Assembly: GCA_026874595.1 (NCBI GenBank)
Contig: CM049320.1
Span: 42,170,714-42,234,713, forward strand
DNA length: 64,000 bases
Direction of reading: 5' to 3'
DNA from: Sipunculus nudus
Taxonomy: Eukaryota > Annelida > Sipuncula > Golfingiida > Sipunculidae
The notes beneath the pieces were generated by a model. The model made no database searches. It saw nothing but the letters and a program-made list of their open reading frames with translations, and was not told where the DNA came from. Made by a program: the position numbers and the translations under genes. Numbering within the stretch: the first letter of the stretch is position 1; every line of letters starts with the position of its first letter. Shown piece after piece: positions 21,701 through 55,101 of this stretch.

Positions 21701-24249
21701 GCTCTCTGACCATGACCTTTGACTCTGTGATCTCAAAATCCAGAGGTTTCTTTATCTGTGGATGAGTGAGCCATATGTGCAAGATGAAAGGTTTTGGTCA
21801 AATGGTTTAGCTTAAAATTGATCCGCAAGCTTTTGTCAAGAAGTGGGTCCTGTGGCCTTGACCTATGGCCCCTTGACCTCAATATCGAAAAAGTTCTTCT
21901 CTGTGGGTGGGTAAGCCATAGGCACAAGATTAAAGGTTTTGGTCAAATGGTTTGACTTATGGGACAACAAGCCAAGCCTGGTCAGACAAGACAGACGCAC
22001 GCATGAAAAGAGGCTTTACTTTATCCCCTTGAAGTTCCACGGGATAATAATGATGACCCCTTTGGGAAAGTTATGTCCAAAAGCACCACTCCCACGGTGC
22101 ATAGGCTGTCAGTTTTTCATATCCACATGTTTATGTTGTTCTGTTTGTCAACATTGGCATGTGGACCATGTTTTATAACATCTGATGCACTGATCAGTAG
22201 GGCATTATAAAAACTTTTCTTTGCTGGATATAATAATATAATGTTCTTTAATATATACCAAAAGTAAGCCACAAATCAGGTCAATTCTGCAAATAAGGCA
22301 AGTGAATAGTTGGCTTTAATACTTTATATAAATCTAAGCAAATATAAATTGAAAATTTGTTTTGCCTGAATCTAATACTTTTCAAATTAAGCTATATTCA
22401 ATAACAATTCATGAGGGATGTTCTTGCTAGTTCTTACCTTTTGTTAAATAACATGTATTTTTTTCCTTTTTTTAAGAACACACTACTTAAATGCTGAGTT
22501 ACTGTTTTGCACTGACCTCCCTCTTGATCCTCCTCATGTGCAGGAACACAGCATTCCCAGTCTTCTGGTAGTGCTGCTCCACATACTTCTTGCCAAACCC
22601 CAGGAAGCTGTTCATGCAGATGTATAAACCTGTCTCACATTCCTGCAAGCACAAGCAATCACCACTGTATTCAAATTCATACAAAAGGAGTATCAGCATG
22701 TATTGAAGAGTAATATGATTGCCAAAAGCTCTGAGAGGATTCAATAATGAAACTCTAAAACAAGCACAATCTTCATAAATAGAAAAAATGCAATCTTCAC
22801 ATTTATTTTAATATGTATTGACCCAAAAGATAGAGAAATTACCAACACTACAAATGTGATACATATTACTTTACTTTATGTTGGTAATGCCACCGGAACT
22901 TCCTGTTTACAGCCTGGAGGTGGACCAGCTTGCCAGCCCAGATAGCCCACTCTACTTCAAAGGCTACAGGGATAAAAGATTTGTAATTACAGCTGCCTAG
23001 GCTAGGTAACCTCCTTGACAGGGGTGAAAGCTTTGTACATGTAATTAATCAAAGCCTGAAGGTAATTTCCAGTATTGCACAAGCCTGGAATACCTAAATA
23101 TAACAGATACATTAACTTAAGTTCCATGTACAGATACCATGTACCTCCTACTCAAGAAAGCCAGGTACAAGTACTGGTACTCTGAATTGTGTACCTAGGT
23201 ACAGTTAAAGGTACCTGGCCAAAACCCTGGTTTAAAGTGTTTTTCTGTTCTTGAATTATCATGTTATGAACTGATACCTAATAATGTTTGCTCACTCATT
23301 TCTTTTTCTCATGGTTGCCAAATTATTGGACAAATAGCCACTCTGATAAATCAAAAATAAATTTAATATTTTTGACTGCCAAAATTTCATTATTTTTTTA
23401 AATATTAAAAAATGACTAAACACACAGCACTTTGGAACAATCTTGTAAATTATGCAAACATTTAAAAAGTCTTCAGAATGTATGACTGTAACACTAAATA
23501 ACGTACAAAATCCAATTTGATTTTTCTATCCATTGTTAACTTTTGTATAATATTTGTTCAACTGATTAAACACATAATGTACAGTATGAATACACAAAAC
23601 AGAAACACTTTTTCCAGATGTTATTACTTTCATATTAATAATAAATAATTAAACATTAACATATAAATCATTCTAAATAATATAATCATCATATCTGCAT
23701 TTCAACAATATTGATGGTATTTTCAAAATATACTTGTATTTATTCTTTCCAAACTATTTTAACAAGCAAATTTCAGTGTCATTTTGATGTTCTTCGATAC
23801 TGAATCTTGGCAAATTTGGGGATTTTATTTTGTTCAAGATCACTATCACTGAGTCAGTGAGTCTGATGAATCAATATAGTAGAAAATATTTTGGTAATGC
23901 TGTGTTGATATTTTAAGTTACGTCTACTTTTTAAAGTACCTGTCTGTTAATTTTTCTGTATTAAATTTTCAGCCTTCATCCGTTTTATATTTTAAACATT
24001 ATTTTTTATTAATTTGATAAAAATAAAATTTTGATTTTTGACAGATGATGACCGATCTCTTTTCTGAACCTTATTAGGAAACATTATCTTGGCTCTAAGA
24101 AAGAATCGTGAACACAGATGACCAGAGCCCAAGTACGAATAACTCACAGGGGTGTCGAAGCAGAAACAGCATTCATCCTTGTACACTTTTTCTCCTCCAA
24201 ACGGGGAGCGGATTTTACGCAGATGAGGTTGCAGTTTGCCGGCTGCCAT
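697..24249 (-). CDS. USP5: USP5 / isopeptidase T deubiquitinase, N-terminal 509 residues in 13 exons (3' part outside window)
   Basis: Coding segments in order are 24148-24249, 22517-22642, 21409-21463, 20930-21048, 19060-19166, 18054-18289, 15298-15392, 14704-14897, 13900-13971, 5898-5985, 4845-4967, 1583-1736 and 697-754. They join in frame with GT-AG introns to 1529 nt. The protein has a variant N-terminal zinc-finger region (about residues 20-160), a ZnF-UBP domain with C191, C194, C211 and H224, the Cys box [11 protein letters not shown] with catalytic C327, and the QQDAQEF box. USP5 disassembles unanchored polyubiquitin: its ZnF-UBP binds the free C-terminal GG of ubiquitin. Human USP5 is about 835-858 aa, so the UBA domains and His box lie left of position 1. 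USP13 is the vertebrate paralogue; USP5 is chosen because of the adjacent CDCA3 gene and because the zinc ligands are intact. Confidence 0.96.
1583..1736 (-). CDS. USP5: USP5 coding exon 12
   Basis: Reads [20 protein letters not shown], then [20 protein letters not shown] and [11 protein letters not shown]. This matches RNCRSSENPNEVFRFLVEEK and LPVPMDAALNK of human USP5. Acceptor TTTCCAG|AGG, donor AAAG|GTACAC, ends phase 1. Confidence 0.95.
4845..4967 (-). CDS. USP5: USP5 coding exon 11 (QQDAQEF box)
   Basis: Forty-one residues, [20 protein letters not shown] then [20 protein letters not shown]. This is the conserved QQDAQEF box of the USP fold. Acceptor TTTCCAG|T, donor GAG|GTAACT, phase 0 at both ends. 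Confidence 0.97.
5898..5985 (-). CDS. USP5: USP5 coding exon 10
   Basis: Reads (M)[17 protein letters not shown] followed by [12 protein letters not shown], matching [16 protein letters not shown]. Acceptor TTTACAG|G, donor AAG|GTATTG; phase 2 in, phase 0 out. Confidence 0.95.
6420..7390 (+). repeat. GGTGGCGCCACC-type interspersed repeat cluster (USP5 intron 9, part 1)
   Basis: Repeated modules alternate a 'gtaggtggcgccacctg' block, an 'atgcaaaattttaggcagataagtcaaaccactg' -like block, and an 'aggcagac..acagac' block followed by 'gaaaatggttgcaggtggcgccacc'. Exact 12-bp palindromes occur at 6544-6555 and 6693-6704. The same modules recur at 9540-10400, 13250-13745 and 19430-20540. No coding capacity is visible. 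Confidence 0.8.
7675..8247 (+). repeat. Recent ~318-bp direct duplication with an internal ~52-bp duplication
   Basis: The block beginning 'ttttccattaatag' at 7676 recurs at 7993 almost unchanged through 'aagattattccttgaat'. The first copy contains an extra tandem duplication of about 52 bp (7720-7821, 'aagttttataaat.tgcaatacg'). The near identity implies a recent event. A diverged relative ('acaacatggcatct') is present near 16890-16930. Confidence 0.85.
8640..9535 (+). repeat. Dispersed repeat ending in 'tatagtcagctgagctaaaaa'-type motif
   Basis: The region shares 'ttaaatcaacagtgcttgcagg' -like and 'gtgccattg.ccaaagttgg' blocks with 17200-17300, and both copies reach a 'tagtcagctgagctaaaaa' motif (about 9493-9511 and 17277-17293). 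No ORF of note. It lies in USP5 intron 9; the second copy is in intron 6. Confidence 0.65.
9540..10400 (+). repeat. GGTGGCGCCACC-type repeat cluster (USP5 intron 9, part 2)
   Basis: At least four modules of the same family as 6420-7390, with exact palindromes at 9611-9622, 9740-9751 and 10042-10053 and one-base variants near 9910 and 10190. The open frame at 10043-10384 is built from this repeat and is not considered a gene. Confidence 0.8.
10540..12230 (+). repeat. Tandem array of five ~330-bp units with alternating A/B structure
   Basis: The landmark GTCATGA recurs at 10571, 10887, 11221, 11546, 11881 and 12205, giving spacings of 316, 334, 325, 335 and 324. Each unit also carries 'cattagtttttgacttataatg', 'ttaaacggca', the palindrome CAGGTGGCGCCACCTG or a variant, and 'ttcaaggtcaaggccactc'. 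Units 2 and 4 contain an extra 'gttataaatgtactgttaag' segment missing from units 1 and 3, so the array is a dimeric higher-order repeat of about 660 bp. Confidence 0.9.
12318..12335 (+). repeat. (GCG)6 trinucleotide run
   Basis: Six GCG units in AT-rich intron 9 of USP5. It is intronic, so it does not encode an alanine tract in the host protein. Confidence 0.9.
12425..12472 (+). repeat. Two adjacent short inverted repeats (TCTAGACA / TGTCTAGA)
   Basis: TCTAGACA-TTG-TGTCTAGA and TCTAGACA-CAT-TGTCTAGA lie side by side. The 8-bp palindrome GTCTAGAC at 12451-12458 is identical to the classical Smad-binding element; whether it acts as one here is unknown. Confidence 0.75.
13250..13745 (+). repeat. 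GGTGGCGCCACC-type repeat cluster (USP5 intron 9, part 3)
   Basis: Modules with variant palindromes (GGTGGAGCCACC near 13269, GGTGGTGCCACC near 13398) plus the 'gatgaacagatggacgctgtgcaaaa' -like block shared with 9540-10400 and 19430-20540. It ends about 150 bp upstream (plus-strand sense) of USP5 exon 9. Confidence 0.75.
13900..13971 (-). CDS. USP5: USP5 coding exon 9
   Basis: A 72-nt exon reading (R)[20 protein letters not shown] then NIQ(M), matching the IFQNAPTDPTQDF segment of human USP5. Acceptor TTTTTCAG|A, donor AAAT|GTGAAT, phase 2 at both ends. It flanks the very large, repeat-filled intron 9 (5986-13899). Confidence 0.94.
14704..14897 (-). CDS. USP5: USP5 coding exon 8 (catalytic Cys box)
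   Basis: Reads [20 protein letters not shown] onward and includes [19 protein letters not shown]. The Cys of GNSC is residue 327 here and corresponds to C335 of human USP5. The donor is the less usual AAAG|GTTTGT, chosen because it joins in frame to the next exon ([10 protein letters not shown]). Confidence 0.96.
15298..15392 (-). CDS. USP5: USP5 coding exon 7
   Basis: Reads [20 protein letters not shown] then [12 protein letters not shown]. It matches the [14 protein letters not shown] segment that closes the ZnF-UBP domain. Acceptor TTGTAG|AT, donor AAG|GTAATT; phase 1 in, phase 0 out. Confidence 0.96.
16990..18000 (+). repeat. USP5 intron 6: G-run, dispersed repeat and 'gacctt'-type repeat
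   Basis: A G-rich run at about 17020-17040 is followed by a copy of the 8.6-9.5 kb repeat. A diffuse series of 'gacctt.a..taaaggtcac..gttt' blocks then spans 17300-17900 and resumes at 18400-18760. This repeat type is common in bivalve introns. No coding signal apart from exon 6 to its right. Confidence 0.55.
18054..18289 (-). CDS. USP5: USP5 coding exon 6 (ZnF-UBP domain)
   Basis: Encodes nearly the whole ubiquitin C-terminus-binding ZnF-UBP domain. Visible ligands are C191 and C194 ([17 protein letters not shown]), C211 (GSILCGRR) and H224 (GGNNHAV), with R213 following C211 as in human USP5. Acceptor TTTGACAG|A, donor GCAG|GTGAGC; phase 2 in, phase 1 out. Confidence 0.97.
19060..19166 (-). 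CDS. USP5: USP5 coding exon 5
   Basis: Encodes [20 protein letters not shown], then [15 protein letters not shown] and two bases of a Lys codon. The WDGE...IS-K-H motif aligns with WDGEVRQVSKH of human USP5. Two in-frame acceptors lie 6 nt apart (CTGCAG, then ATCCAG); the first is chosen because it follows the better pyrimidine tract. Donor AA|GTAAGA. Confidence 0.88.
19430..20540 (+). repeat. GGTGGCGCCACC-type repeat cluster in USP5 intron 4
   Basis: Same modular family as in intron 9, but the palindrome is degraded in every module (GGTGGCACCACC near 19717 and 20123, GATGGCGCCACC near 19995). This suggests an older copy set than the one in intron 9. Confidence 0.75.
20930..21048 (-). CDS. 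USP5: USP5 coding exon 4
   Basis: With the carried G it reads [17 protein letters not shown] and later [13 protein letters not shown], matching the family's GVEGGFDL...KIVILPDYLEI block. Acceptor AACAG|GC, donor GTG|GTAAGT, phase 1 in and phase 0 out. Confidence 0.93.
21409..21463 (-). CDS. USP5: USP5 coding exon 3 (55 nt)
   Basis: A short exon encoding [18 protein letters not shown] plus one base of the next codon. Acceptor AAAG|ATC, donor G|GTAAGG. The [11 protein letters not shown] stretch corresponds to PPRKKPTRLAI in vertebrate USP5, and the basic run sits between the two zinc-finger regions. Confidence 0.92.
21650..21960 (+). repeat. 'tgaccttgacc'-type dispersed repeat, copy in USP5 intron 2
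   Basis: Contains 'gtgggtcctgtggccttgacc' -like and 'gaaaggttttggtcaaatggttt' blocks that recur within the copy (21788 and 21936) and again at 38590-39070. Overlapping short open frames here are explained by the repeat. Confidence 0.65.
22517..22642 (-). CDS. USP5: USP5 coding exon 2
   Basis: Forty-two residues, [20 protein letters not shown] onward, preceded by a TTGCAG acceptor and followed by a GAG|GTCAGT donor; both ends are phase 0. Matches the GGLYICMNTFLGFGKQYVE block of USP5 family proteins, part of the N-terminal variant UBP zinc finger. Confidence 0.94.
23100..23235 (+). mobile_element. Degenerate end of a 'gtacctgtacctgg' element
   Basis: Series of 'ggtacctgg', 'gtacctaggtac' and 'aggtacaagtac' motifs ending 'ggtacctggccaaaaccctgg'. 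This resembles the right terminus of the intact element at 30100-30792 ('gtacctggccccaaccctg'). No matching left end was found, so it is a fragment. Confidence 0.5.
24148..24249 (-). CDS. USP5: USP5 coding exon 1
   Basis: Encodes 34 residues from [10 protein letters not shown] to [11 protein letters not shown] and ends phase 0 at a CCT|GTGAGT donor. Two in-frame ATGs occur. The upstream one (24255-24253) has C at -3 and A at +4. The one at 24249-24247 has A at -3 and G at +4, so it is preferred; the choice changes only two residues. It aligns with the human HKDECAFSFDTP segment of the first zinc-finger region. Confidence 0.93.
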
Positions 24250-24483
24250 GATCATAAGAGGCGGAAGTAGAAACTAAGTATTTACGGTAGTGACGGAACC
24301 TGCTGTCTCATGCAGTTCTTACGGCAGTTAGATTATCCAATAAGATCCATTCTACAAAACAGATGGTGGCTTCGAGATGCATCCTGAAATATGATTGGTC
24401 GAGGCGCGAAATTTAACTTTGAAAACAACTCGGTGGGTCAAAGGGACACGAGAAAGAAAAGTGAAGAGACCACGAAGTAACTT
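24250..24483. promoter_or_regulatory. Putative bidirectional promoter between USP5 and CDCA3
   Basis: Immediately upstream of the USP5 start. Visible motifs are an ETS-type GCGGAAGT (24261-24268), a CCAAT box (24337-24341), an inverted CCAAT box ATTGG (24394-24398), an exact E2F-type GCGCGAAA (24404-24411) and a CHR-type TTTGAA (24418-24423). E2F, CHR and CCAAT sites are the known signature of G2/M cell-cycle genes, which suits CDCA3 better than a housekeeping deubiquitinase. Promoter activity is inferred, not seen. Confidence 0.6.
24440..24483 (+). other. CDCA3: Candidate non-coding first exon of CDCA3
   Basis: A purine-rich stretch just right of the CHR/E2F cluster ends at a good donor, CTT|GTAAGAAG (GT at 24484-24485). 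CDCA3's start-codon exon opens with a splice acceptor (AG at 32121-32122), so at least one upstream untranslated exon must exist. This one would give a 7.6-kb first intron. The exon's left end is a guess, and the competing candidate is the cluster at 31.0-31.25 kb. Confidence 0.3.
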
Positions 24484-24829
24484 GTAAGAAGACTACTGGT
24501 GGGTTTCATCATAATGTACATGTTCATTTTATCACCACTACGATGAGATACAGATCTGTTGTCAATGCAATATTTGGGAAACATTGTATTTTTATGCATA
24601 ACGGGATAGCAGTCCTAATTGAGCATGCAACAAAACAAATTTTGTCGCAGTGCCAGTGGGAATGTGGGATTTCGTAAAAATTTGGGTTCACCAATTAAGT
24701 GTTTATAATGCATTGAACCCACATATCTCGGGGGAAAAGCATTATACGGGAATGAACTTCATGGGGCTAAAACACCTAATGAACCCATATTTTCGGTTTT
24801 TAAAAATGGAGGTTGAATGCCCTTTAGTA

Positions 24830-27800
24830 CTATAGTCCGGGTGTGACTATTTTAGTATTTACCGTCCGGGACCCACTGAATACCGTCTGGAACATAGCTG
24901 TACTGCCCGGGTCACTAAGACACCGTCCCAGACACCATAATAAGCTTAAAAGTATTACTTAAATGCATACAGGCCTTCTGGGGCCGACCAGGCCTCCAGT
25001 ATGCCGTCCGGGTCAACGAAATATACTACATTTCAAAACACTCAAAGATCATGTGATTATATTCCACAGCTAGTGATTATTATATTTTAATATGAATATT
25101 TTAGTTTAACTCCATGTTAATTATTATTATTATTCTTAATCTATTATTAATATTATTATTATTATTCATGCATTCTGAATATACTTCTTCCGCCCAGAAT
25201 ACCGTATGGGCGGTTCGACTTTTTACCGAAACCGACCTCTTTTACCGGAACTGACTTTAAAATATATTAAATTGCATTTAGTTACATTTTCTATTTCCAT
25301 ATTCTCAGACAGTGTGAAACATATTGTAATACAGTAACAACACAACATAATAAACACGATAAAATACAAGGTTTTGTGAAATGATCATAACATAAAAGTA
25401 CCTCATTTTCCATTTATGTTCACTTGTAAATATTTGTTCAGTTTAATAACATAATTCAATTTTTATGTAAAGAGGACAATTTCATGTAATTTTCAATTTA
25501 ATTTACATTTGGACAAGTAAAATTTCCTCAGTAAAATTATAATATTTTCAGCATCTTTTCCAAAACAATTTTGAATATTCTGAACAAAAGCAGAATGACA
25601 GAATTTTAGAATGAAAGAAACAATTCTGATTAGTCCATCATACTCTGATTTTTTCTCTCATTTTTGTTCTCATTGAGCAACTGCAGGGTGTGATGAACTG
25701 ATTAGGGGTGCTAATGACTGGCTGGCTGCCCTCACCCCTAAGCTTGTCACTCTAAGCTGTTGAGGCAGCTCTATACAAGGAAATCCCCACTATACTGTGC
25801 AAAACTTTGAGTGGATCATTTAATTTAATATTTGAGAAAGCAGTTTATTTTGACATTTTGACTTAATTATCATAAATTTGATAAAATACATAAGCAGCTG
25901 AAAGTCATCATCCAGCGTTGTCAATTTATGAAGAAACGTGTAGAAAGTTGCAAAGTATACATTAATAAGTTTATCTAATATGTTCTGCCATTTTAACATC
26001 ATGTCCTAAATATTGCCAAAAAACAATGGGCGCCCCTTGGTGGGACAAATTTTATCGACTGGGAGGGCCTAAATATATAGCAGCATCCCCACAGGACTAA
26101 TTTTTAGTATTTGTAGATTCCTGATGGCCCAGGTATGAAAATTAATGCAAAAAAAAGATGTTAAAAAGAAAACTTCTCCTTTGCGTTCATATAATTATTT
26201 CTGAATTCATATTTCAAATATGGTACATGTACAACACTAAGAGATAAATAAATCTAACAATCCAAGGTGATAAGGACAGAAATGTTCAAGGCATTCCATG
26301 CATTTGTCATGAATAAATAAGCTGTTTGAATGAATTCTTACTCAAACTGATCATGATTGACTGTATAGTGGAATTTCACATTTGTTTTTCAAATGATACA
26401 AGTTGTAATCATAAAACCCATTAACTTGATGCTTAACATCGATAGGTCCAGATGAAATAGATTTTAAAACAGGAGTCATGAGCTGTTGGTCACTGTCTTT
26501 GTAATAATCTGGATACTGTATAACTGCAAATATTGTAGTTGGTGTAGGCTATGTATCTGTTTCCATGGATATCTCCAGAGGGGAGAGAGCACAAGAGCTA
26601 GGGGTAGATACTGTAGATCAGTAAATTGTCATGGTCCATATCTTAAGTTTACTTGCCATATGAGGTATTTGTTGTTGACAAAGACATGTAATTTATAATA
26701 ACATAATACATGGATTTATAGAATATAAGTCCTGAATTATTATGAAAGTGTTCGGCTTTTGCTTTTTTTAATTATTTTGATACTGGAATATCCATGCTGA
26801 CTGATCTGCTGTTTTGCAATTTCACTATAAGAAACAATTGGGGTGAAGTAAAGTAAGATGATATGTGTGTTCTTCAAGTCAGTTCCAGTACCATTTTAAG
26901 CAGATCCATGTAAGATATTGGTAGTCACACTTGGTTGAAACTCATCAAGTTATGTGATTATAAAATATGTTTTAAAATAACTTAAACAAGTGCTTTATTT
27001 TCTTTTGAGTTCTGATAAAATGCAGTCAGTTTTGGTCAGTTCCAGTAATATGAACTCAGTTTCGGTCAGTTCCGATAGGTTCTGGTCAGTTCCTGTAAAA
27101 GTCAAGCCCCTGTATGGGGCAACAAAACCCAGCCCCGAAAAGGCTCGAGATCAACCATGTGCAATAGCCAAATTGAATATACTATGTAATATTTACACTC
27201 AAAAGATATTACGATTATATTTTTAATAAGAATTAAATTGTTTGGTAGGCCTATACTGCCATGGTAATGATCATGATATAATTATTATAATTAGTAATCA
27301 TGTATTCAGAATGTTATTATACCTGCCAATAAACCGTCCGGGGCAATAGAACTAGCCCTGAAAAATTCTCACCTAGTCAAGGACGACAGTCGGGGGGAAA
27401 ACTGACCCTTTGATCATCAACCGCCTGTCACTGATTGCTCCATCGAAACCATGCACGTCTGTCGTTGTGACATAATTAATTAGCCAAGTGGTGTGATTAG
27501 TAGTTGTTATACAATGCGTTGAACCATTACCATCTTCCCGGTTTGACGGCTGTGGTCTATGGTGCTGTCACAGATACATGCCGTGTGCTTATCCGTACGT
27601 TTTGTTGTAATTATATAGCGTCATAAATTATATTTGCAATACATAATGCTTTCAACAATACACATATCAATAAAGGCCTAATCTGGACAGTAAAATCATG
27701 TACTTGACATCAATAAGTGTCTGTATGCATTTAAGTAAAACTTTTTTTATCTAGTTCTGGTGTCCAGGTACAGCTCGGTCCCGGACGATATTCAGGGTGT

Positions 27801-27851
27801 CCCGGATGTTTACAGACGTCCCGGACGGTAAATGGTCACACCGCTATAGTC
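24830..27851. mobile_element. ~3.0-kb non-autonomous DNA transposon with 8-bp TSD CTATAGTC
   Basis: The element spans 24838-27843 and is flanked by CTATAGTC at 24830-24837 and 27844-27851. The left end CGGGTGTGACTATTT and the right end (read inverted) CGGTGTGACCATTT lead into subterminal blocks rich in ACCGTCCGGGAC on both sides. An inner inverted-repeat pair ('ggaactgac', 'cgaaac.ga') lies at 25220-25260 and 27010-27110. No transposase frame was found. The TSD length suits hAT, or a 9-bp MULE-type duplication if the next C is counted. Confidence 0.7.
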
Positions 27852-28440
27852 CATCCCAATACCCGTGTCCGCATGTTTTTTTGCGATAATTATTTTAAGG
27901 AGATTCTTTAAAAATGGTCTGGCCTGAAGTAGATAAACAGGTATTCCACCGATTTTGTGTAAAGTAGTTATATATCATTTAAAACGTATTTACTTTGCAA
28001 CTCTTTGGCGTTATTTATGGTGAAATACCGTGGATGGCACCTTGCCGGCACTGCTGGACCGTACATTCCTCTATTGTACACTTTCCATGTCTAAGGCTGC
28101 GTTTGGCATTTGTTAGACAACAGTGACATCACAAAGACGTCACAGTGATTGGTCGGGCGTCACCTTCAATTAACTGATGTCAGAAGTTTGACTGGCTTGT
28201 TTATTATCAGTTTTCAGGCAAGGAATAAGTCGTAAACGCTGTAACCTGTTTTGTCATATTTTGAATTACTTGTATCATACAAATTCTCAAAGCAAGGTAA
28301 GGCATTACTTTTTATGCAGGTAGTCGGCGGAATAGCTCCTACAACCTTTGAACAAGAAAGATTTACACTGCTTTCCTTGTATGAAACATAATCCCAGAAA
28401 AACATGTGGACACAGGTACTGGAACGGACTATACAAAGTA
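27852..28440 (+). repeat. Dispersed ~600-bp repeat, copy 1
   Basis: Co-linear with 63487-64000. Shared blocks are 'attattttaag', 'gtggatggc', 'tacactttccatgtct', 'tcacaaagacgt', 'aaggtaaggc', 'gcaggtagtcggcgga' and 'gtggacac'. It contains CRE-like ACGTCAC around 28137-28143. It sits directly against the right TSD of the 3-kb transposon. Class unknown. Confidence 0.75.
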
Positions 28441-28456
28441 CAATATTAGGCTTCTC

Positions 28457-29834
28457 TTATACCTCAGGGTTGGCAATTTCTTCCAAGAGGCGGTTCCTTC
28501 CATGGAAACTTCCGGCTCGGAAGAATTAGTTTCCTCCATTTCTTCCAGAAGAAATTTTCAAATTTCATGTGAGAATATATAAAACTAATAAATTTTTAGC
28601 TTTATTTCTGCCATAAACATAATCTGTTCCATCTTATTTGCAAATATGAAGGTTTATATTAATGTATAGTGTTATCTTAGAATGTATCATTCTTTGTTTA
28701 ATTCAGTTGGACAATATGCCTCCTGTAGTTTTGAGTTAGTTTAGGTGTCATAATTCAAAATCAATGGACACAGGTTTCTGTCCGGTGAACCATGCAATGA
28801 TAAACAGGTGATTACCTACAAAAGTGTAGTCTAGTTATTCCTGACTGCACAGAGAGGCAGGGTATGGGGAAGCCATGTCATAATTAACAGGTTTTCATCT
28901 ACTATACTAATCAAACGGTCAAACTGCTCCTTGTTTTAACAGATTATTACCCAGCAGATACACATGCACAGAGATAGGGTTACCTATCTCCAGCAGGCAT
29001 ACAGAACATGGTTTCTTTGGCACAAATATATAAGATAAGGGAGCATATGTTCCATGCAGTAGGCCTATACTGTGTACCTACTATTCAGACAACACATACA
29101 ATAACAGATACAAAATGTTTTGAGGAGGATGCCCAAAAGATGCGGTTTGGGAACTCTTTGTAAGAGTAGAAGTAGGTGGCAAATAAGCAAGCTATCAATT
29201 TTTGTTATATTTTGTAAGAAATGCACTTGGCATACTATTTAGATTCTACATTAGTGAGTTGGTATGTAGCACTGCATGCACCTTGGCAGCTATGCATTTG
29301 ACTCTTAAGATATAGATGGGAATATGTAGTATATCAATCAGTAATTCTTTGTCATACAAAAGTAACTTTGCTGAGTGAAACAAATTAAGTAAGAACTAGT
29401 TAGTAAGTTACAGTAAACTTCCTCTAACCTTCATGTGAATACAGGTAGACATTTAAACATGAATCTTTTGTTAATTAACATGTTAACACATACTGTGCAA
29501 CACTACATATTTAAATAGTTGAAATACACATCCATCATGCAGCTGCAATTTTGGCAATACTATATGAATAAAACTAACAGAATCATATTTAGAATAATTG
29601 GAGCTTTATTCCTGTACACTGAATAAAAGTCATATTGTTTTATTTTATTCAGAAGAAAGAAAAATAGTTCAAATATCTGTTTTTATTTCCACGTATCACT
29701 CTTACTGTCCACAAAATTCCACTTTCATCCATTACTTCCGGAAGTAAGTGGAGAAAACCCCATTTCCTCCAATTTCTTCCAATGTCTCGGAAGAAATACA
29801 TTTCTTCTGGAAGAAAACCAACCCAGTTATACCT
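28457..29834. mobile_element. 1.36-kb non-autonomous hAT-like element, TSD TTATACCT
   Basis: The element spans 28465-29826 between perfect 8-bp duplications TTATACCT (28457-28464 and 29827-29834). The left terminus is CAGGGTTGGCAATTTCTTCC and the right terminus ends GGAAGAAAACCAACCCAG, inverted to the left with a few mismatches. Subterminal TTCTTCC/GGAAGAA motifs are dense at both ends. An 8-bp TSD and CAGGG terminus are hAT features. There is no transposase, so it depends on an autonomous partner elsewhere. Confidence 0.88.
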
Positions 29835-30091
29835 TACTATAAATAATATATTAATTATTTGTCAGTTGCTTGGTTATACTTTTGCGGGATTGTGCATTTG
29901 GCAGGTTTTTGTTAAAGACCTATTTTACATTTTTTTGACACATTATTTCCAAATTTTGATTATTCTAAAATAAGGAGAAATGTTAACTAGTATAAGAATA
30001 AGGCTTACAGTGTTTGCTAACCAATATATGTTAGATATAATGAGCAAAAAATGCTCAAATATAGCTTGTTTTCTTGGCAATGTCTAGCCCG

Positions 30092-30800
30092 CCACGTACC
30101 AGGGTTGGGGCCAGGTACTTGTACCTGTACCTAGGTACACATTTCAGAGTACCTGTACCTGCACCTACCGGTCATGAGTAGGAAGTACCTTGTACCTGTA
30201 CCTGAAACTATAGTACCTGTACCGGGAACAAGGTACTCCAGATACATTTTCATATTTTCAGTTTTTTAAGTTTTTTTCTCTTTTAGTTTTAAATTTTTAT
30301 ACCTTTAGTGTAAAATAATCAGCAAGCTATCAGTGTGATAAACTGCTCATGAACTGAATTGTTATCACACCTCCAGAATGGTCACATGTGTGAAATCAGC
30401 TGTAACCACTTATTAAGCAAATCATTCGATTATACTGTATTTGGTGCTGTTAATGAACTTTTAAGTACACAAATATCATGTTTGTGAATGTATGGTGTCA
30501 TACTCTACTTGGTGCACTTTATGGACTTTTAATACACTTGCAATTTGCATATCATGTTTGTGAATGTATGGTGCCATACAGATAATAAGTTCTAACAAAA
30601 TATACCTGAGCAAATGACTTCAATATTGTTTGATAGAAAAAAGGCATGTTAACTTGCATATACATGAATTTATGCCGTTATTATTAACCGTAAAATGTCT
30701 TTGAAGTAATCCTAAAATAAATGTACCTGTACCTGGCCAATTCACAAGTACCTGTACCTAGGTACTTTCACTTGTACCTGGCCCCAACCCTGCCACGTAC
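30092..30800. mobile_element. 693-bp hAT-like MITE, TSD CCACGTAC
   Basis: The element spans 30100-30792, flanked by CCACGTAC on both sides (30092-30099 and 30793-30800). Termini are CAGGGTTGGGGCCAGGTAC and its inverse GTACCTGGCCCCAACCCTG, a perfect 19-bp terminal inverted repeat. Both ends continue with repeated GTACCTGTACCTAGGTAC motifs. No coding capacity. A fragment of the same family lies at 23100-23235. Confidence 0.92.
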
Positions 30801-31002
30801 AGACTCCATTTATGTGATATGGAGTCCGACCATCTGGCGGTGAGAGTTCACCCTGCGGTACATGGAGGGACCTTTAACATGAAATACCACTGCTTGTTGT
30901 GTGATAGAGAAGCAAACTTGTATTTATATATAAAAATAAACTTAATATGTTTCAGATTAAATCGATATCACCTTAATGTGCACCTGTAAATGTTTTTTAT
31001 CC

Positions 31003-31254
31003 TTTGAACTGTCGGGGTTCAGTTGTTGCATGCGCAACAGAACAATGCCCGAAAAGGAATCCCATGCAAATTAGGTGGGCTTTACATGCAAATGAGGAAT
31101 TCAGGGGGGCTTTTCCAAGGAATGCCAGTGCCGTGCACTGGGATAGACCATATTTTCATAAGCATCCTTCCCATCATACATTTCTTGTTGTCAGTGATGC
31201 TAATTTCCTATTGGCTGTTCCAACTTGAAGGCTTCAGCAGCCTGACGGAGACAA
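31003..31254 (+). promoter_or_regulatory. Promoter-like cluster 0.9 kb upstream of CDCA3 coding exon 1
   Basis: Within 250 bp: CHR-type TTTGAA (31003-31008), NRF1-like TGCATGCGCA (31027-31036), two octamers ATGCAAAT (31064-31071 and 31086-31093, 22 bp apart), a Staf/ZNF143-like TTCCCATCATAC (31168-31179) and an inverted CCAAT box ATTGG (31210-31214). A GTAATA donor follows 'gacaaa' at about 31254. It could be CDCA3's own promoter with a short 5' exon. The two overlapping open frames here (31004-31228 and 31023-31259) are not believed. Confidence 0.45.
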
Positions 31255-32122
31255 AGTAATATCTGACTTCATTCAGAGTAAGTGCCCATACTTGAATATA
31301 AACTGATCATTCAACAAAAGTTTCAGTCCCAACGGGGTCCAAGCATCTGTAACAATAATAATATGTGGGGATGGACTAGTGTCCTCTTGTTACACTAGGC
31401 ATATACATGTCTTAGGGTTCCAAGGATCCGTACAACCTTGGATAGTATAGACTCTCCCCGCCAGAGGCTGCAGCGCTTGATCATTGTTTACTAATATATG
31501 TCAGTGCAGCAAGACTCCAGCAAGGCAATGTCATGCATTACATTATGGCGGACAATGAATATATGAGCCAATGAATTCAACTTTAGAGGCATTTTGTCTC
31601 TCAAACAACACCACCTTTCATTATATGACCCTTATTTTTCTAAAAAAAATTATTCATCTCTTGTATATAACAAAATATTACCTTAGATTATAATTTGCAT
31701 TAAAGATTGTAAGAAATAATCCTCTAAAAAAACGCTAAAATTCACAATTTCCCCTTGCTATAAATAATATATTGATATTTTGTCAGTTGCTTAGTTATTC
31801 AGTGTCATTTCTTTACTTATTTTTCTTGGTATGACATATACTTGAGGTCATTGACCAGTATACCAAATGTGGGTTCTTTATTAACAGACATTAATCAGTT
31901 AAAATACCAAGTTGAGATCAGGCAGACCCACTCTGCAATGAAAGAATAGGAGCATAAATAACAAACCAACTTACTGGGGGGGGGGGGAATTTACATTTTA
32001 AATATATTTGATAGGCCCTTGACAAAGTATGTGTATGAACACGCACATTGATTTTAAGCTTAAAGCTGCCCCGCACTAATTATCCTGCATTGCGTAGTAA
32101 CTTGATTTTTATTCCTCTGCAG

Positions 32123-32399
32123 AATCACCAGGACCTTGTGAATTGTACTGTACATGTTGTCACCATGGGAGCACTACAGACCAAGGAGTTCACCGAGATG
32201 TTAGAGGAGGAGTGTGCTGCCACACCTGAACCCAAACTCCGTTCCCTCTCAGCGCAGTTCGACCCTCGCTCACCCACAGCAGACATCACACGCACACCTA
32301 TCATGGTGGAGAAAACCCCCGACAATATACTAGACCCCAGGTCACCTTCAAATACCATCACAAGGACACCAATATACTCTTACATGGAGCAAAAGCAAG
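32123..32399 (+). CDS. CDCA3: CDCA3 first coding exon (5'UTR 32123-32164, CDS 32165-32399)
   Basis: Starts after acceptor CCTCTGCAG (AG at 32121-32122). The ATG at 32165 begins MGALQTKEFTEMLEEE, then two DPRSP repeats, ending YMEQKQ plus one base at donor CAAG|GTGAAA. The upstream in-frame extension to 32048 lies mostly before the acceptor, so it is intronic. Confidence 0.92.
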
Positions 32400-35300
32400 G
32401 TGAAATTTTTCTTCATTTAGACATTTAAACCTTCCATATAAACTGATGAAAATTCTCCCATTAGGCCAAAAAATTTTAGAAAATGTTTCTCAGGCACATA
32501 TTTCAGAAAGTGATGCTGGCGGATAGCTTTTATTTATTTAATTTTTCCACCATGAAAATATCTTAAAATATCATTATTTCTCATGCATGGGCAATAGAAA
32601 TGACAACCAATGGTTAACATGAGATTATAAACGATGTATACAATTACATGGAATTAGTCAAAAGGATCCTTGAAATATGTGACATTTCTTTTGCATGGAA
32701 TATTAACATGCAAACCAGATTATGTAGGACTATGGGTGTCAAAATCTTTGCCGTCAACCCAGAATACATGGGCGCCGCCAATGGTCATGACATTGGGATT
32801 CCCCCATTGAAATGCATGATTGTCATGCATTGTTAAAGCAAGATCCAAGATTGTTAAATAAAGAGATGCATTTGAAATTTCTATAAGTCTTATATTATCT
32901 TAATTGATATTTCTTATTTAAATTTTAATTCCAAATAAATAAATTGGAAGTTTGGCAGCCATCTTTATTCTCATCGAATGGTCACGAAGCATGAGAATAT
33001 TAAAAATATGCAAATAATTTCTCTTATACATTTGAATTCTATCACACATAAATTAGACCAATTCCAAGTGTTTATTTAAAGGTTAGTATAGTTTATTTTT
33101 ACAGAAACAAGCATGTTATCACTTCATTAGCTATGAACAGTACTGGCACGTAGGGACCAATACAGAAAATAGTTCACAAAGACAGAATTATTAGATATAT
33201 TAATCATAGTACCAGTAAACAATGTTAAAGTCCAACTGGTCAAAAGTTTTACAGGAATTATCAATGTATTGAAGTATATTCAAGGATAAAAATGGTTCAT
33301 TTATCACTAGGAGAGAAACTGGCAGATGCTGCAGTCACAGATTTTTTTATTAGCAACCAAGCATGTTACTAGATTACCACATGACATTTGGACAACTAAA
33401 AGGTTTGACATGGGGGGTTGGTTAAAGTGACGCCAGCAGTTCCTGATTTGCAGATTTACACAACATGGTGTAACTTGCATCTTGGAAAACAAGGAAAAAA
33501 TTTTGAATTTACATTTTTTTTTTCCCCAGACACTGAATTTTAGGAAGGTTCCTGAAATGAGGGAAGAGTCAGATACTGGTACTTTGTTGCCAAAAAAAAA
33601 GAGAAAATGATCAGTCTGATTTATTTTATCATATGCCCCAACAGCATATCTGATTGAAGATCTGTGGTTGTTTTTTTGTGTGATTTTAATTCTGTATATA
33701 TTTTAGGAAAGAAGGATGCACAGTCAGACACAGCACTGCAGAAGGCAGTGAGTGAGGACAGTCTTATTCACCCAGCAGACTCCTCACTATCAGATTCCCT
33801 CATGGGGCTAGCTCCTCTTGACCTTGATGCAGCGACTGACCTTGAAACCAAACTCATCACAGAAGTGAAACCAAATCCAGCGCCTGTCCCTGGTATGTCA
33901 CCTTTTTAATATTGTACTGCCATCTCGAGACGCAATAGATCAGCGTTCAGCTTGAAAGTGACACACCCTGTCCTGCTTGCGGTTAGATCAGACTGGAAGA
34001 TTAATCCCATCTTAACGCTCAAGTCTCAGCCCCACTAACTGGTAGACTTACAGATCATTAAATGTAGCATGCTTTATCTTTTGGCAGCAATATCATATGT
34101 TTGTCCCTCAACAAAATATCAAATACTCTTCATAATTGTGCATGAAATACACCACCACTCAGCTTACAAATTTTACTGGTGTGCTGTTCATGTACAATTC
34201 TGGGGATAATTAGAAATTTAGTTGAAGGACAAGCATGACATTACTTCCGAAAGAAAATGCATGCTACATTTTATGAAACTAGAGTAAAATTTACTGTTAG
34301 TCAGGCTGTGATTAGAGCCATTAGCTTAGACAAGCCTACTGGCCTGACCTTACATCCCGTAGAACATTTTCTCACTTTCCTGCTTGACACTTGATGGGCT
34401 TGGCATGAGAGTGGACTTAATTATATAACCTCGAGAGTTTTCAAAGGTCCTTTAAAACCAGAAAGACATGGAACATAGGATTCAAAGCACTGAAATCTTT
34501 GAGGTTTTGATGTTTACTGCAGGGCCTTTACACCAATTACACTCAAAGAATGGTAATCAAACAAATTAGATTTGGGTTATCACAGTTTTAAAACAGGAGC
34601 TGGATGCTCAGTGTGATACCTTTCTCTCAATGGTCCACTTGGCCTTGTATCAGTGCCTAATGGTGAATTCAGGCAAGTCCTGCTTAACAAAGGAGTGACC
34701 AAAGCAAAGTATCTGTAGAAAAATAGAAAGCTGTCTTCTAAGCAATGCAGGTCACTATACTGGGATGCACCCAAAATTGTGTAAACTTGCATTAACTAAT
34801 TCAGCCCCTGTTCCCAGGTTCATTGAACTGTACCTCCATGGATTTAACTTTATGATGTTCCTGAATCCAGATCATGTGCTGGATCCACCAAAAGTTAATC
34901 AATTCTTTATTGGCAAATTCTGGAAATGCCTTGAAAATTTTGTCAGATTATATTGTTAACAAACATACAAACAGGGATGGACACATACCCTCATGGCAGA
35001 GGCAATTAATTGATATCTGCATGAAGGTTAAACAGATGGTACAGTTCATAGATAATTAGAATGGACATATGTAAACTCACAAACAAGGGTGAATGCATAC
35101 CCTCCTGACAGAGACAATGACTGCAGTGTATAACTTCATAAGGAGTGTTCAGGTCCTTCTTCAAAGTTTAACTGGCCTTCAGTACCATCATGTCATGCTG
35201 CCATCCTAGTAATAAATTTTATTATTGAATGGGGTCCAAAAGATTAATGGATTATAAGCAATTTTTTTTTTTCAGTTACTGGTAGTCTGTCATTTGGTCA

Positions 35301-37224
35301 AGCTCAAAAGTTCAAATATGCAGTTTGGGTCATAGAAAATTTTAGTAAGATCCTAAAACCTCTACACTTCTGTAAATATCCTAGATAAAGTGTGGCCTGG
35401 AGGTGCAGAATTCCTGAATATGACCTATTGTTTGTTCCATCCCCTCATGTCCATTGGTCTACTGTTTGCTAGGAAATTTTATATTACCAGTAGTTACATT
35501 TTGAGGGCGAAAATGGAAACAATTTTCAACAAAGTAAAACTACACTCGTAGTAGTATTGATTGTATTCATAAATCATATTTGATGATTGAAAGATAAAAA
35601 GATTACCAACAGTCAATTAGGAAGTGTTCACACCATGTTTGGTCCAGACAAGTTCTTTGAAGTTAGTTTCCTCGTTCACGCCTTGTTCATAAGGTTGTGT
35701 TCTCTTCACAACGTCTACAGGACACTTGTCATGGACAAGTTATGTATGACAGCCTCTAAAACTGGCCATAAGATGTCGCCAACTGTCGAGCCATTTCACA
35801 GAAACTTATTCAAAACTTTCAATTCCCTCCAATATAAACAAAAAAGACCAACCCTGCTATTTTTTTATTTATTAAATTTCTCCTATCGCCCACATGCTAT
35901 AAATATTATATGCACCCTCAAATATTTTGTTTCCTGAAATTTTCTGCTGTCCTGCAATATTTAATGCCTGTTCACTGTTGATGCCAAACAATGGGCTGAC
36001 CTTAACTGGACCCTGAAACAGGTCACTCTAATCTTTATTTATCTGCATAGTGCATGTACCTTGTTAACTTACATCCAATACATCCATCACAGAACCCTCT
36101 TAAGAACTTTTCTTGACATAAATTACATGCATTTCATTAATATGTGCGCAGAGTAAGCCAGAAATCATATAAATTCTACTGATAGGCTAGGTGAATAGCT
36201 GGCTTTAAGCTGAGCAAGGCCTTGAGAAGTGACTGTCCAAAAAGCCATTGACCAATATCAGATGAGCAGACAGTCTGTGATGTCAGTGTGAACTTTTTTA
36301 GGATGATAGGATTGTATTAAGTAAAATCGTATAGTCAATATAAGCCACTGTCCTAAGTGTTTTGAATGGTGAATGTTGTTTGGTTTGAAATATAGTTGAT
36401 AGGTGTCAGCACATCTTTGATATTGTGTTTTGAGTTGTCTCCTTTGCCTTTCCTGATATCTTATTCCTGGTTGTTGTCCATACAAAACTAATACATTGAT
36501 ATAAAAATGAACCAGATATATTGCCTCTGGTGCTAGTTCCTTATTGAATTTTTCAATCACAAAGTATTAAGTAACTTGTCAGTACACAGTTGTTTATACT
36601 TTTTTTAAACTTATTAAACAGTTTTGTTTTCAATGACCTCCTAATCATCTTTTAATTCATCAGCTTCTTGCTTTTGACATGGCAGTTTACGTAACTAACT
36701 TTTCAGAATACACTGCAGATGTAACATTTTAAATTTTCAGATAAATTTTGCATTTTCTACACATTAAAACATGTCTTTATTTAAAATACATTTACTCAGT
36801 AACATTTGAAGATATGTTTGTGAAATTTTCAGCATTAACTGACAGACAAATGAATAAATATGTTATCCAGTAATGGAAGATGCCCTTGTTATTTTATTCA
36901 GCAGTTGGACCTCCAAGTGTGAAGAAAGGAAAAGACAAAGAAAAGACAGTGGTGAAAAAGGTCAAGGTCAAAGAAGCACAGAAGTCACAGCCCAAGGTCA
37001 GAGATAATACTCCAAGGTCACCGCTCAAGATCATGGGAGGAGTTCAGCATTCTCCTCGTGGACTGTGTCATGTTGATTCCAACTCTCCACGGTCTATCGT
37101 GCAGCGTAAACAAGCCAGTCGCCTTGGAATGGTCCAGAAAAGTCCCAGTCGGAAACAGTTAAACCTTAGCTCCACAAAATATAGCCAACTCATGGCACAG
37201 GACAAGGAAAACATGCACTGCTGA
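32165..37224 (+). CDS. CDCA3: CDCA3 (Tome-1, trigger of mitotic entry 1), complete in 3 coding exons, 247 aa
   Basis: Coding segments 32165-32399, 33707-33892 and 36902-37224 join in phase 1 with GT-AG introns to 744 nt including TGA. The start CACCATGG is an optimal Kozak context. The protein carries two DPRSPxxxITRTPI repeats (residues 33-46 and 57-70), as human CDCA3 does (268 aa). A Lys-rich region with several SP sites follows, then the C-terminal KEN box QDKENMHC (KEN 242-244). In vertebrates CDCA3 is an F-box-like SCF cofactor that promotes Wee1 destruction at mitotic entry and is itself degraded in G1 by APC/C-Cdh1 via the KEN box. It diverges from USP5, as in human. Confidence 0.93.
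32700..33260 (+). repeat. Dispersed ~550-bp repeat, copy 2 (in CDCA3 intron 1 of the coding region)
   Basis: Diverged direct copy of 130-680: same order of 'aaatgcatgattgtcatgcattgttaa' -like, 'gaaatttctataagtctta', 'ggcagccatcttt', 'caaataatttctctta' and 'tggtcaaaagttttaca' blocks. The 62-codon open frame at 32648-32836 lies in it and is not a gene. Confidence 0.6.
33707..33892 (+). CDS. CDCA3: CDCA3 second coding exon
   Basis: With the carried G it reads GKKDAQSDTALQKAVSEDSL, then an acidic, Ser/Asp-rich stretch to KPNPAPVP. Acceptor TATTTTAG|GA, donor CTG|GTATGT, phase 1 at both ends. This middle region is poorly conserved across the family. Confidence 0.88.
33893..36901 (+). other. CDCA3 second coding-region intron; no further features
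   Basis: AT-rich intron without recognisable coding or RNA content. A short stretch at about 36125-36210 ('agtaagcca.aaatca', 'gtgaatag.tggcttta') is shared with 22260-22325 in USP5 intron 2, so a small dispersed repeat is present in both genes. Confidence 0.6.
36902..37224 (+). CDS. CDCA3: CDCA3 third coding exon and stop
   Basis: Reads AVGPPSVKKGKDKEKTVVKK, later DNTPRSPLKIMGG and NSPRSIVQRKQ, and ends KYSQLMAQDKENMHC then TGA. The acceptor is a tandem NAGNAG (TTCAGCAG), so an isoform lacking one Ala is possible. The KEN box and SPR/SP sites fit an APC/C- and CDK-regulated protein. Confidence 0.92.
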
Positions 37225-40139: not shown

Positions 40140-40995
40140 CCTATGACTAGGTCTCTACTTTTGATGATTGCCTCATAGTAAAATTTGCAGATGACGTAAC
40201 AGTTTCTAGGCTCATCCGGGGAAATAATGAAAGTGTTTACCGCAATGAAATTAAAACTCTAACTTCGTGCTACTCTGAAAACAATCTGGAGTTAAATGTA
40301 AAGAAAACCATTTAGACGAAAGAAAACTGAAATATTACCCTTAGTAATTGAAGGCTCTGAGGTTGAAATCGTTGACCGTTTTAAATTTTTAGGAATTTTT
40401 TTCTTCTTATTTGAAGTGGGTCGAAAATGTTAATGACTGCTTAAAGAAGGCACAACAACGTTTATTCTTTCTAAGGAACCTAAAAGATTTCGGGCTCAGT
40501 CAACCGATTTTATTAAAGTTTTACCGGGCGGTAATTCAGGGAGTCCTGACGTTTTCAGTCACTTGGGGGGGGGGGGGGGCAGTATCACGGTCGAGGAAAG
40601 GAACCATCTTTCGAGGGTAGTTAGAACAGCTGAGAGGATCATTGGGGTTCCTTTACCCACAGTTCACACATATTTCAAACACGATTGATGAAGAAAGCAA
40701 ACGACATTATAGAAGATTATAGTCATCCAGCGCACTATTTTTTTAATGAAATCGGGGTTCGCGACAGGTCGCTATCAGGCAATTCCAAAAGAACTCAAAC
40801 TAGCACTTACGCGTCAGTCGTTCGGGAATTAAATATATCACTTGCAGCTCAATAATCTAGTCAAATAATCTTAGTCATACGTCTTTTTTTCTATACACAA
40901 TTTTATTTTATTACTTTTTGTTTAATGTGTTTGTTTCAGCAAGCCAGTCAAGCCAAATACTATTGTATGTGATGATTTTATTACATATATATAGC
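40140..40995 (+). mobile_element. 5'-truncated, broken LINE (CR1/jockey-type reverse transcriptase C-terminus)
   Basis: Frames pieced across frameshifts show KFADDVTVSRL with the FADD catalytic box (40184-40195), then ENNLELNVKKT, VDRFKFLGI, LKKAQQRLFFLRNLKDFGLS, FYRAVIQGVLTFSVT, VVRTAERIIGVPLP and KKANDIIEDYSHPAHYFF. This order matches the end of the reverse-transcriptase and C-terminal region of CR1/jockey-group non-LTR elements. A long G-run at 40565-40579 interrupts the coding sequence, and there are stops. The 3' end has a 'tatcttatcttaac' type tail. Confidence 0.85.
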
Positions 40996-40999
40996 AATA

Positions 41000-43790
41000 A
41001 ACTATCTTATCTTAACTTATGGGACCTGACGTTGAATTAGTACATTAACTTGAGTAATGGTCCAGACTACTCTGGTGCTATTTTTAGACCGAACGTTTAG
41101 CATTGCTGGGAGTGCATTAGAGATTTGACAACTCAAATAAAGCAATGTTAACCTGGCCCGTTTCTGTTGCACAAGTGTTCCTGTTCAGACAGTATATTGT
41201 TCACATTTTGTTCTTTGGGTTCAGACTTATTCAGTATTCATTAAATCGACGCCAGTCTGGCGTCTCGCTGAATCCAAGTTTGTGAAAACGTGGCTACTAC
41301 AGACTCGATAGTATAGGAAGATGTTATCATCAGTCTCCAGTCCCAGGTTTTACTAGCCAAAGATTAAACGTTTATGCGTTTCCATGCAGTGGGCTGGGCA
41401 AGTGTCATTTTGCATGCGTGGTGATTGAGGTCACTCTCATTTTCCGTAAATTTAATCAAAGTCCGATCTGGGTTGGTTTGTCTGCAGCTAATGGAGGACC
41501 GGAGTAAATAGCTGAAATTTTACATACCTGTCCACCATGTTCTTTTCTCGGAAGCAGCAGATCATGCGGGATTTAAATCAGTCTGCGAAGGTTTATGTCA
41601 CAAGTGATACCTGTACGGTCAGACTCATCCCGTCCAGTCTACTTAGTTTCTCGAACCCGATAGCTCAATTACATAGGCGTCAGTTTGTGGTTTTGGTGAT
41701 AGTTTCTGATAGTAATAAAAATGGGATGCCTTAATACGTCCGATGTACACCTCTGTTTTAAAGCTCTGCTGACTGTATGTCATCTGATCTATATAAGCAG
41801 TGGCGGATCCAGGATTTTGCTAAACGGACCGGGGGGGGGGGGGGGGGCACAAGGGTCAAACAAAACTTTAAACCTTGCTTCAGTCAGCATCTCTACAATT
41901 AGGAACACCAAATGTCTCAAGCAACTGTAACAAGGCCATGTGTCCAGTTGCCCATGTCCTAAATAATGCCACTTGTTAAGCCGCGGGCTTATAAGGCCGA
42001 TTTGACGTACGAAACAAATGGGTTTTGTCGGCCCAAGTTAGGACAAAAAATAACATATAAAATTACCAATTGAACGTGTAATATAAAATGTAAAAAAAAA
42101 ACTTGTTGTGAAAAAGATGTGATTGGCGTCTAACAGTTCATTAAACAAGAGGTAACTCTACGTTCCCAACCACTAGGGTTGCTCTGAGTTCTCATAAAAG
42201 AGAGTGAAACTGGGGGGCATATCGGAAGAAATAGTTAGGAAGAGGATAAACATGATACAAAAAATTTACTCTTTTATGTCATTTACAGATGTAATACTAT
42301 TTGATTGAAAGGGACATGCGAGGCATGCAAGGCGGCAAAAAAATGAAAGCTAAGGGGGGAGGGGAGTACGTGCCCCCTGTGCATATTCCTCTGGGTTAGG
42401 GACAGGCCCGTTGTCCATCATCTGGACGATGACCCGTCCTTCATTCCGGTGACAACCAGGGCACGTTGTAATCGTTAGGCCCAGGAAGATGTAGCTCCAC
42501 AGGCTCACAACTCCCGTATTTCTTCCGGAGAAATAAAAAAAAATAGGTTACTGTGACCAACACTCCGTGAAAAGGACTGCAAACGCGCTATATTTAGCAC
42601 CTTTGAAGGCAAGATTCCTGTTTGTAATAATTCATACAAATATAGACCGATGTCACAGGAAAAACTGGATAGATTGTCCTTAACTTTGGTATATTAACCA
42701 ATCATCACTGTTGCAGAATTTTTTTACAGTTACACGTTTTTCTTATTTTTTTGAGAATGAAAATTCATAGCCATTGCTCTAACCAGCAAAGCAGAAGCCG
42801 TAAAGTAAACACAGGAAGTTCAAACATTTTGTGCTTACAGGCCTTGGTAAGTTATCATTGAAAATTCAGGACGTTGTCTCTGTTATATTTCCCCGAGCTG
42901 AAGACAAAACATATTCATCATCTCTTAAGTAGAGAATCTTCATACTGAAAATACATACAAAAGGCCCGATTTCTCAGGAACAGCTGAAGTTGTAATAAAA
43001 TTTGTGGTGACGGGGTTCTTACATTCTTAAAAAGTCATGATTTTTGAGATTTTAAATATCAGTACTTAAAAAGTCATGATTGTTTTTTGAAAATTCTCAA
43101 AAGTCATGAAAAAGTCATAAAAATGTTTTGTATCAACTTAATATTCATCAAAGATTGAACGTACATAATACATGAAAACAACCAAAACCAGACTACACCT
43201 GGGCCTTTCTCCCATCCGCTCTTAATTCCCCTTCTGGGCGGTCAACTCTCCATTGCCGTCATGCTATTCATACGAATTTCCTCATTCAGCTAAACAGCTG
43301 TGTCCAAGATACCCAATTTCAATAATTGAGAGTTGTTCGTAGGATACCAAGCGAACCAAATTCTTAGCTTGTCTCTAGTGGAGTATAATCATGGCAATTG
43401 CGAGTTTTGTGCTAATGCAGTTTGACGTCATATAGACGTGCGGTAGAGAGGGGTTTCATGGGGTCGAACCCCAACCCAAGGTATAACAAAATACAACCTA
43501 TTTGTCAGTAATGAATACGTATACTTCCAGAAAAAAGGTCGTGGTCTCAAGAAAGTGTTTTGACCTACATTTACAGCCATGTTTTCATGGTAACCAATGT
43601 AATTTACAAGGTCATAATAATTTTTAAATAAATAGCCATAACTCTTTTACTTTTACACATAGAAAAATGAAACGAGCACCAAAATGCGGGAAATAACATG
43701 GCGATTATTATATTGTACATGTATTTTGTATTCCTTATTTGTTTAACTTATGGAAATATATGTAAATAAATGTATATTTATAATTTAAAA
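41000..43790 (+). other. Intergenic, no supported gene
   Basis: Contains a 'gcagtggcggatccagg' element end with a G-run (about 41801-41850), an open frame at 41537-41734 with a good start context (CACCATG) but no family resemblance, and 'aaaagtcatga' short repeats at 43028-43115. I see no splice-supported coding exon. Confidence 0.5.
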
Positions 43791-45651: not shown

Positions 45652-46429
45652 AGGTAAAAATGTTTTAAAAATCTTATTCATTCTTTGCTTAAATTTCCCT
45701 TTAGGACAGGGAACATAAATTCCTCATTATTTATAACTTTGGTTCAGTTATATGGCCTGTTTATGCATGCAAAAGTTTATGCGAAGAAAGTTACCATAAT
45801 ATAAATTTTGTATATATAGCCATCACTGGTACTGTTCTTGCAGTTATATAACCTGCAACTGTATCTGTTACGAGTAGAGTGCATAAATAATATTCATCGG
45901 GAAAGCTATTTTATGCGTAAATAATTTGCAATATATTGGATAAATAATGTTATTTATATTCTGAAGCTTATGGGGGAAAGAAGTTTTCATGAAGATTGCG
46001 ATTACTGGGGGTAACATGTGTAAAACCATGTCGTTCATTACTGTTGTCGGATTCCAGATCCAACCTATTGTTTGCACACTTATGTCGAATAGTGTGTAGC
46101 TTGTGTCATTCTCTGGAATTTTCATATAGATTTTTGCAAAAATACTTTTTTCATAACCTTAGATCCATATTAAAACCAGGTCAAGATGGCTACTGAGTTT
46201 CGGAATTTAGACTGAATAACGGCGTCGGTCATCGTATAAGGAAGTGTGTACGGACATATGGTTATTTATACGTCAGTCGGAATCTCTAAACAGGCCACAA
46301 GAACGGACGGGTAAAGCATAAACTGTAAAGTTAATAACTTTTTTAGCAAATGACCGCCAACTCTCGCTGTCCATGTTTGACACACACCTGACTAGAGGAC
46401 AGCAGCCCGTCTCACCTGAGTGAGTTCTT

Positions 46430-51796: not shown

Positions 51797-51860
<64 letters not shown>

Positions 51861-55100: not shown

Positions 55101-55101
<1 letters not shown>

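Follow-up and report, generated by a model that had tools for sequence, protein, structure and literature searches.

Head-to-head USP5 and CDCA3 genes in Sipunculus nudus: a probable ancient pair with a compact candidate promoter and a transposon-filled spacer

In human, USP5 and CDCA3 are immediate neighbours transcribed divergently at 12p13.31, in the CD4 locus; the spacer between them is less than about 100 bp long, and TPI lies next to USP5. Here, we describe the same two genes in a stretch of 64,000 nucleotides from the sipunculan Sipunculus nudus (C15:42170714-42234713 of a 1.43-Gb assembly; hereafter the window, numbered from its first base, with negative positions to its left). The locus resembles the human and vertebrate neighbourhood in holding this gene pair, and differs from the human one in its 7.9-kb spacer and in its recognised neighbours on both sides. 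Work on mammal-fish synteny names GNB3, CDCA3 and USP5 (PMC4470515), and the order GNB3, CDCA3, TPI1 is given in a great-ape study that has USP5 among the loci left out (PMC12077880). A shallow search of the literature found no study that treats the two genes as a bidirectional pair, and the main texts of PMC3815023 and PMC2871058 name neither gene.

Other described systems also invite comparison. The CDT2-INTS7 pair is likewise head-to-head, with E2F and NF-Y sites on its cell-cycle side, and there E2F acts towards CDT2 only (PMC2194621). That case was established by reporters with human sequence, whereas the motifs considered here are read from sequence alone and lie in a spacer filled with transposons. 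Ancient animal microsynteny kept by cis-regulation provides another likeness, namely an old adjacency that persists amid scrambling (general background in PMC8851819). In those regulatory blocks, however, an enhancer sits inside the introns of a bystander gene, whereas the glue proposed here is a shared promoter.

We consider it probable that the divergent pairing of USP5 and CDCA3 in S. nudus is ancient, that a compact promoter beside USP5 is shared by both genes, and that the first intron of CDCA3 has been inflated by transposons. USP5 runs leftward from an ATG at 24249, its first coding exon occupying 24148-24249 on the minus strand and ending at a GTGAGT donor at 24147. A tblastn search with human USP5 as the query found minus-strand exons from 24222 to 1584 inside the window, the further aligned stretches being 22642-22520, 21469-21407, 21055-20927, 18291-18055, 15396-15295, 14900-14697, 13973-13899, 5984-5904, 4970-4845 and 1745-1584; an additional minus-strand exon near 19.1 kb was included in the joined translation. 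Exons continue left of the window to about -8,680 and match human USP5 to near its C-terminus, including the two UBA regions (human residues 633-699 and 700-748), which gives a gene of about 33 kb. The joined translation matched human USP5 (PDB 3ihp) with an E value of 1.1e-160. USP13, represented by a single listed chain that covers only a 116-aa domain, gave 9.8e-51 and ranked below USP5 chains of the same domain. Pfam models for zf-UBP_var, zf-UBP and the start of UCH all scored above the cut-off, and the catalytic cysteine box reads GNSCYMNS. Judged by these comparisons, the gene that runs leftward from 24249 is a USP5/13 orthologue.

CDCA3 runs rightward on the plus strand. Its first coding exon (32123-32399) opens at a strong splice acceptor ending in TTCCTCTGCAG and has its ATG at 32165, in the context CACCATGG, with coding sequence from 32165 to 32399. 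A second coding exon at 33707-33892 was placed by splice combination, and the last, at 36902-37224, ends with a KEN box (DKENMH) and the stop codon. The predicted protein has 247 aa, on an exon model that was picked among the listed splice combinations and whose last-exon acceptor is one of several options. The protein has no Pfam match, and it was compared with human CDCA3: the global alignment score was 130.5, against a mean of -2.6, a standard deviation of 14.0 and a maximum of 53.5 for 500 shuffles. Common to both proteins are two tandem DPRSP..I.RTP repeats, an RSPLxI motif and a C-terminal KEN box. Identity to the human proteins is weak for CDCA3 and moderate for USP5, which suggests a non-vertebrate animal. 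Because the ATG exon begins at a strong acceptor, a non-coding first exon would be expected upstream.

The two genes thus lie on opposite strands with their 5' ends facing, and 7,915 bp separate the two ATGs. The initial annotation had drawn them as divergent neighbours starting at 24249 and 32165, and those coordinates are correct to the base. Its further statement that no gene lies between them agrees with what was found: none was recognised, ten long ones among the 80 spacer frames of at least 40 aa gave no Pfam match above the cut-off. A transfer RNA scan was also empty.

What, then, occupies the spacer? Terminal inverted repeat (TIR) elements or dispersed repeats account for 6,789 of the 7,915 bp (86%). 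A 3,006-bp TIR element at 24839-27844 and a 1,362-bp hAT-like TIR element at 28465-29826 were called by their inverted ends and by their perfect 8-bp target-site duplications, TATAGTCC and TTATACCT respectively. A 693-bp hAT-like TIR element at 30100-30792 also has inverted ends and a perfect 8-bp duplication, CCACGTAC, and both hAT-like elements start with CAGGGTTGG, a hAT-type end. At 27845-28434 lies a 590-bp miniature inverted-repeat transposable element (MITE) of a dispersed family, recognised by 83%-complementary ends and by matches elsewhere; its interior had 44 matches elsewhere when 40 of 1,242 candidates were scored, 40 of them near full length and 88-90% identical. Genome matches also identify dispersed repeats at 30793-31524 (other copies, 87-90% identical, at 39 of 40 places scored among 1,244 candidates) and at 31526-31753 (scoring 40 of 628 candidates gave 41 matches elsewhere). 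Short pieces from 24661 onward match elsewhere in the genome as well. Outside the repeats there remain 24250-24660, 31754-32122 and some minor stretches, among them 29827-30099, itself with partial copies elsewhere. Pieces of the 693-bp element occur outside the spacer too: an 82%-identical fragment of its start lies at 23120-23229, in USP5 intron 1, and a further partial piece lies at -5392.

The proposed shared divergent promoter is the 411-bp stretch at 24250-24660, directly beside USP5. Among the 40 of 50 candidates that were scored it matched itself only, and the 43 matches elsewhere all begin at a query position of at least 412. A motif scan placed one CCAAT box at 24337-24341 (plus strand) and a second, in an NF-Y-type context, at 24394-24398 (minus strand). 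Beyond these lie a perfect E2F site, TTTCGCGC, at 24404-24411 (minus strand), one of two in the window, and, 6 nt after that octamer, the cell cycle genes homology region (CHR) motif TTTGAA at 24418-24423 (plus strand). CCAAT boxes are part of DREAM/MuvB target promoters, which this stretch resembles in its perfect E2F and CHR motifs and its CCAAT boxes close to a proposed start; their known tandems are spaced by 4 nt, however, and those here by 6-7 nt. When 20,000 sequences, each 240 bp long, were generated by a Markov model of the local composition, 12 had TTTSGCGC no more than 20 bp from TTTGAA, and one had this together with two CCAAT boxes. The observed/expected (o/e) CpG ratio is 0.86 in this stretch, 0.50 in the window and 0.27 in 31754-32122. 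A non-coding CDCA3 leader exon is predicted at 24430-24498 (plus strand), and its donor CTG/GTGGGT at 24499 scores 9.4 bits, second of the 467 GT sites in the spacer. The motifs would point towards CDCA3 rather than USP5, because human CDCA3 is one of 210 targets in a published DREAM-CHR list (PMC4705690) and because E2F4 reporter deletions indicate a proposed GCGCGAGAATG site, located within 1863-1875 in an upstream construct of 2,000 bp (PMC8317516). The initial annotation had suggested that a shared promoter may keep the pair together; this stands insofar as promoter-type features (CCAAT/E2F/CHR) in few-copy spacer DNA are confined to the 411 bp, while the support is indirect and the start sites are predicted only.

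From the orthology, the orientation, the repeat-filled spacer and the motifs, we infer that 24250-24660 may serve both genes. Its leftward output would be steady transcription of USP5. Towards the right, NF-Y, E2F and, via the CHR, MuvB/DREAM would drive cell-cycle-timed transcription of CDCA3 from about 24430-24470, and the short predicted leader exon would be spliced to 32123. The first intron of CDCA3 would later have received the four TIR-type insertions and the two further dispersed repeats. The spacer, ancestrally about 1 kb long, would thereby have grown to 7.9 kb while the promoter stayed connected to CDCA3. If a few hundred shared bases hold the starts of both genes, any break in between would cost one of them its promoter, and this would explain why the pair survived while the human neighbour TPI sits far away. 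A more ambitious version, which we put forward tentatively and with some doubt, holds that USP5-CDCA3 is a pre-bilaterian, promoter-locked pair. A single cell-cycle-type divergent promoter would have held both genes together while chromosomes were being scrambled over hundreds of millions of years, with serial transposon insertion tolerated only on the side of the CDCA3 first intron.

The surroundings of the pair show such scrambling. TMEM26 is the nearest recognised gene to the left of USP5, on the plus strand and tail to tail with it; on the other side, frames at 111-122 kb, about 74 kb beyond CDCA3, contain TSP1 and EGF domains. This Pfam search of the flanks covered ten of 157 frames of at least 90 aa, picked by eye and some of them searched over part of their length, and nearer genes may be missed. 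Neither TPI nor GNB had a match in 264 kb searched around USP5 and CDCA3, and a wider synteny with human 12p13 was rejected on that ground. TPI lies on the same chromosome at 6.0 Mb, 36 Mb away; this local scrambling counts in favour of a promoter-held pair. Company at the level of the chromosome has been kept for one marker (TPI), local order has been lost, and the USP5-CDCA3 pair has been kept.

A number of points weigh against the shared-promoter reading. The CDCA3 leader exon and the start sites are predictions, and the splice-donor matrix was not trained on this animal. Single-copy status of 24250-24660 is not absolute, since ten of the 50 candidates were unscored and the search skips common words. 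The motifs were picked after being noticed and then counted, and the real density of E2F-CHR pairs exceeds the Markov figure: 264 kb contain nine TTTSGCGC sites, of which three have TTTGAA no more than 20 bp away, or about 0.3% per 240 bp, so that such a pair alone is suggestive and not proof. The other two pairs, at 60650 and 93614, have no known promoter role. Tandems of the cell cycle-dependent element with the CHR (CDE/CHR), and of E2F with the CHR-like element (E2F/CLE), are described as having a 4-nt spacer between elements (PMC5716687), which was not found here, where the CHR lies 6 nt from the E2F octamer and 7 nt from the heptamer; a canonical CDE/CHR tandem at 24404-24423 was accordingly rejected for its spacing. 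CpG o/e is also high at the ends of the 3-kb element (1.11 and 0.99) and in the MITE (0.80), and therefore does not single out 24250-24660.

The interval 31754-32122 is few-copy as well, and a CDCA3 start site could lie there. Might CDCA3 then have a promoter of its own just upstream of its ATG exon, with the adjacency held by slow rearrangement or another constraint? We regard this as unlikely. The interval is few-copy apart from one 70% piece (query 229-362, beyond the repeat), and it contains TTTAAA at 31997, which figures among the CHR forms listed in PMC5716687. Yet it has the low CpG o/e given above and no E2F or CCAAT motif, and the exon that follows it starts with a strong acceptor. 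A more promoter-like site near 31.2 kb, with CCAAT, CTTGAA and a near-consensus GTAAGT donor, was attractive at first as a CDCA3 start and was rejected because it falls inside the dispersed repeat 30793-31524. That repeat, or the MITE with its CCAAT, its cAMP response element (CRE)-like motif and its donor at 28297, could instead have supplied a transposon-derived promoter or exon, to which we give very little weight. The MITE donor, AAG/GTAAGG, scores 11.4, the highest of the 467 GT sites, and the CpG o/e of the element would suit a promoter, but with so many matches to its interior elsewhere a recent capture would be needed. The near-full-length copies suggest that the promoter-like features are probably the element's own, and a CDCA3 start at 28.1-28.3 kb, where the best donor, a CCAAT and the CRE-like motif lie, was set aside as part of this dispersed family.

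If instead USP5 and CDCA3 became neighbours separately in this lineage and in vertebrates, the adjacency would be a coincidence. Both sets of flanking genes, with TMEM26 on the left, the TSP1/EGF frames on the right and no TPI or GNB match, differ from the human order. The initial annotation proposed that the pairing predates the protostome-deuterostome split; its age is gauged here from two points, with this animal as one and vertebrates, represented by fish and mammals, as the other. Coincidence is nevertheless highly improbable in our judgement, considering that the pair shares a chromosome with TPI, as in human, and that the chance of finding a named same-chromosome partner as divergent neighbour is about 4e-4 by our own estimate, which includes orientation and assumes about 1,300 genes on the chromosome. 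Applied to the 924 short divergent pairs of the human genome given in PMC2871058, our estimate is that about 0.4 such cases would be expected by chance per genome. A related suggestion in the initial annotation, that the adjacency provides a concrete functional link between USP5 and CDCA3, does not follow: divergent pairs can be regulated asymmetrically, as CDT2-INTS7 is, and adjacency alone says nothing on whether the two proteins work together.

If the pair holds in other phyla, it would be a clean natural experiment on why genes stay adjacent: the wider surroundings have been lost and the spacer is far above the roughly 1 kb left after repeat removal, yet the two genes are still paired and a short stretch with the motifs persists. 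The position of the pair is also a handle for locating invertebrate orthologues of CDCA3, which Pfam models missed here.

TPI itself gave some further observations. A second set of TPI-like exons, possibly a tandem duplicate, lies at C15:6119238-6126698, about 100 kb from the main gene. Eleven intronless TPI frames (261 aa, 278-283 bits) occur on ten high-numbered contigs (C61, C62, C66-C69, C72, C75, C89 and C90). One that was inspected by eye follows an apparent bacterial pgk gene, and these contigs look like bacterial scaffolds from a symbiont or contaminant.

To the right of CDCA3, reading by eye picked out reverse-transcriptase-like and mariner-like transposase-like fragments at 40151-41000, 46424-47991 and 59151-60108; a Pfam search of the frame 59151-59438, within the last of these, gave no match. 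In the same region, a span of 8.5 kb contains four long tracts of AT repeats, at 51800-51860, 55094-55151, 56484-56540 and 60090-60151.

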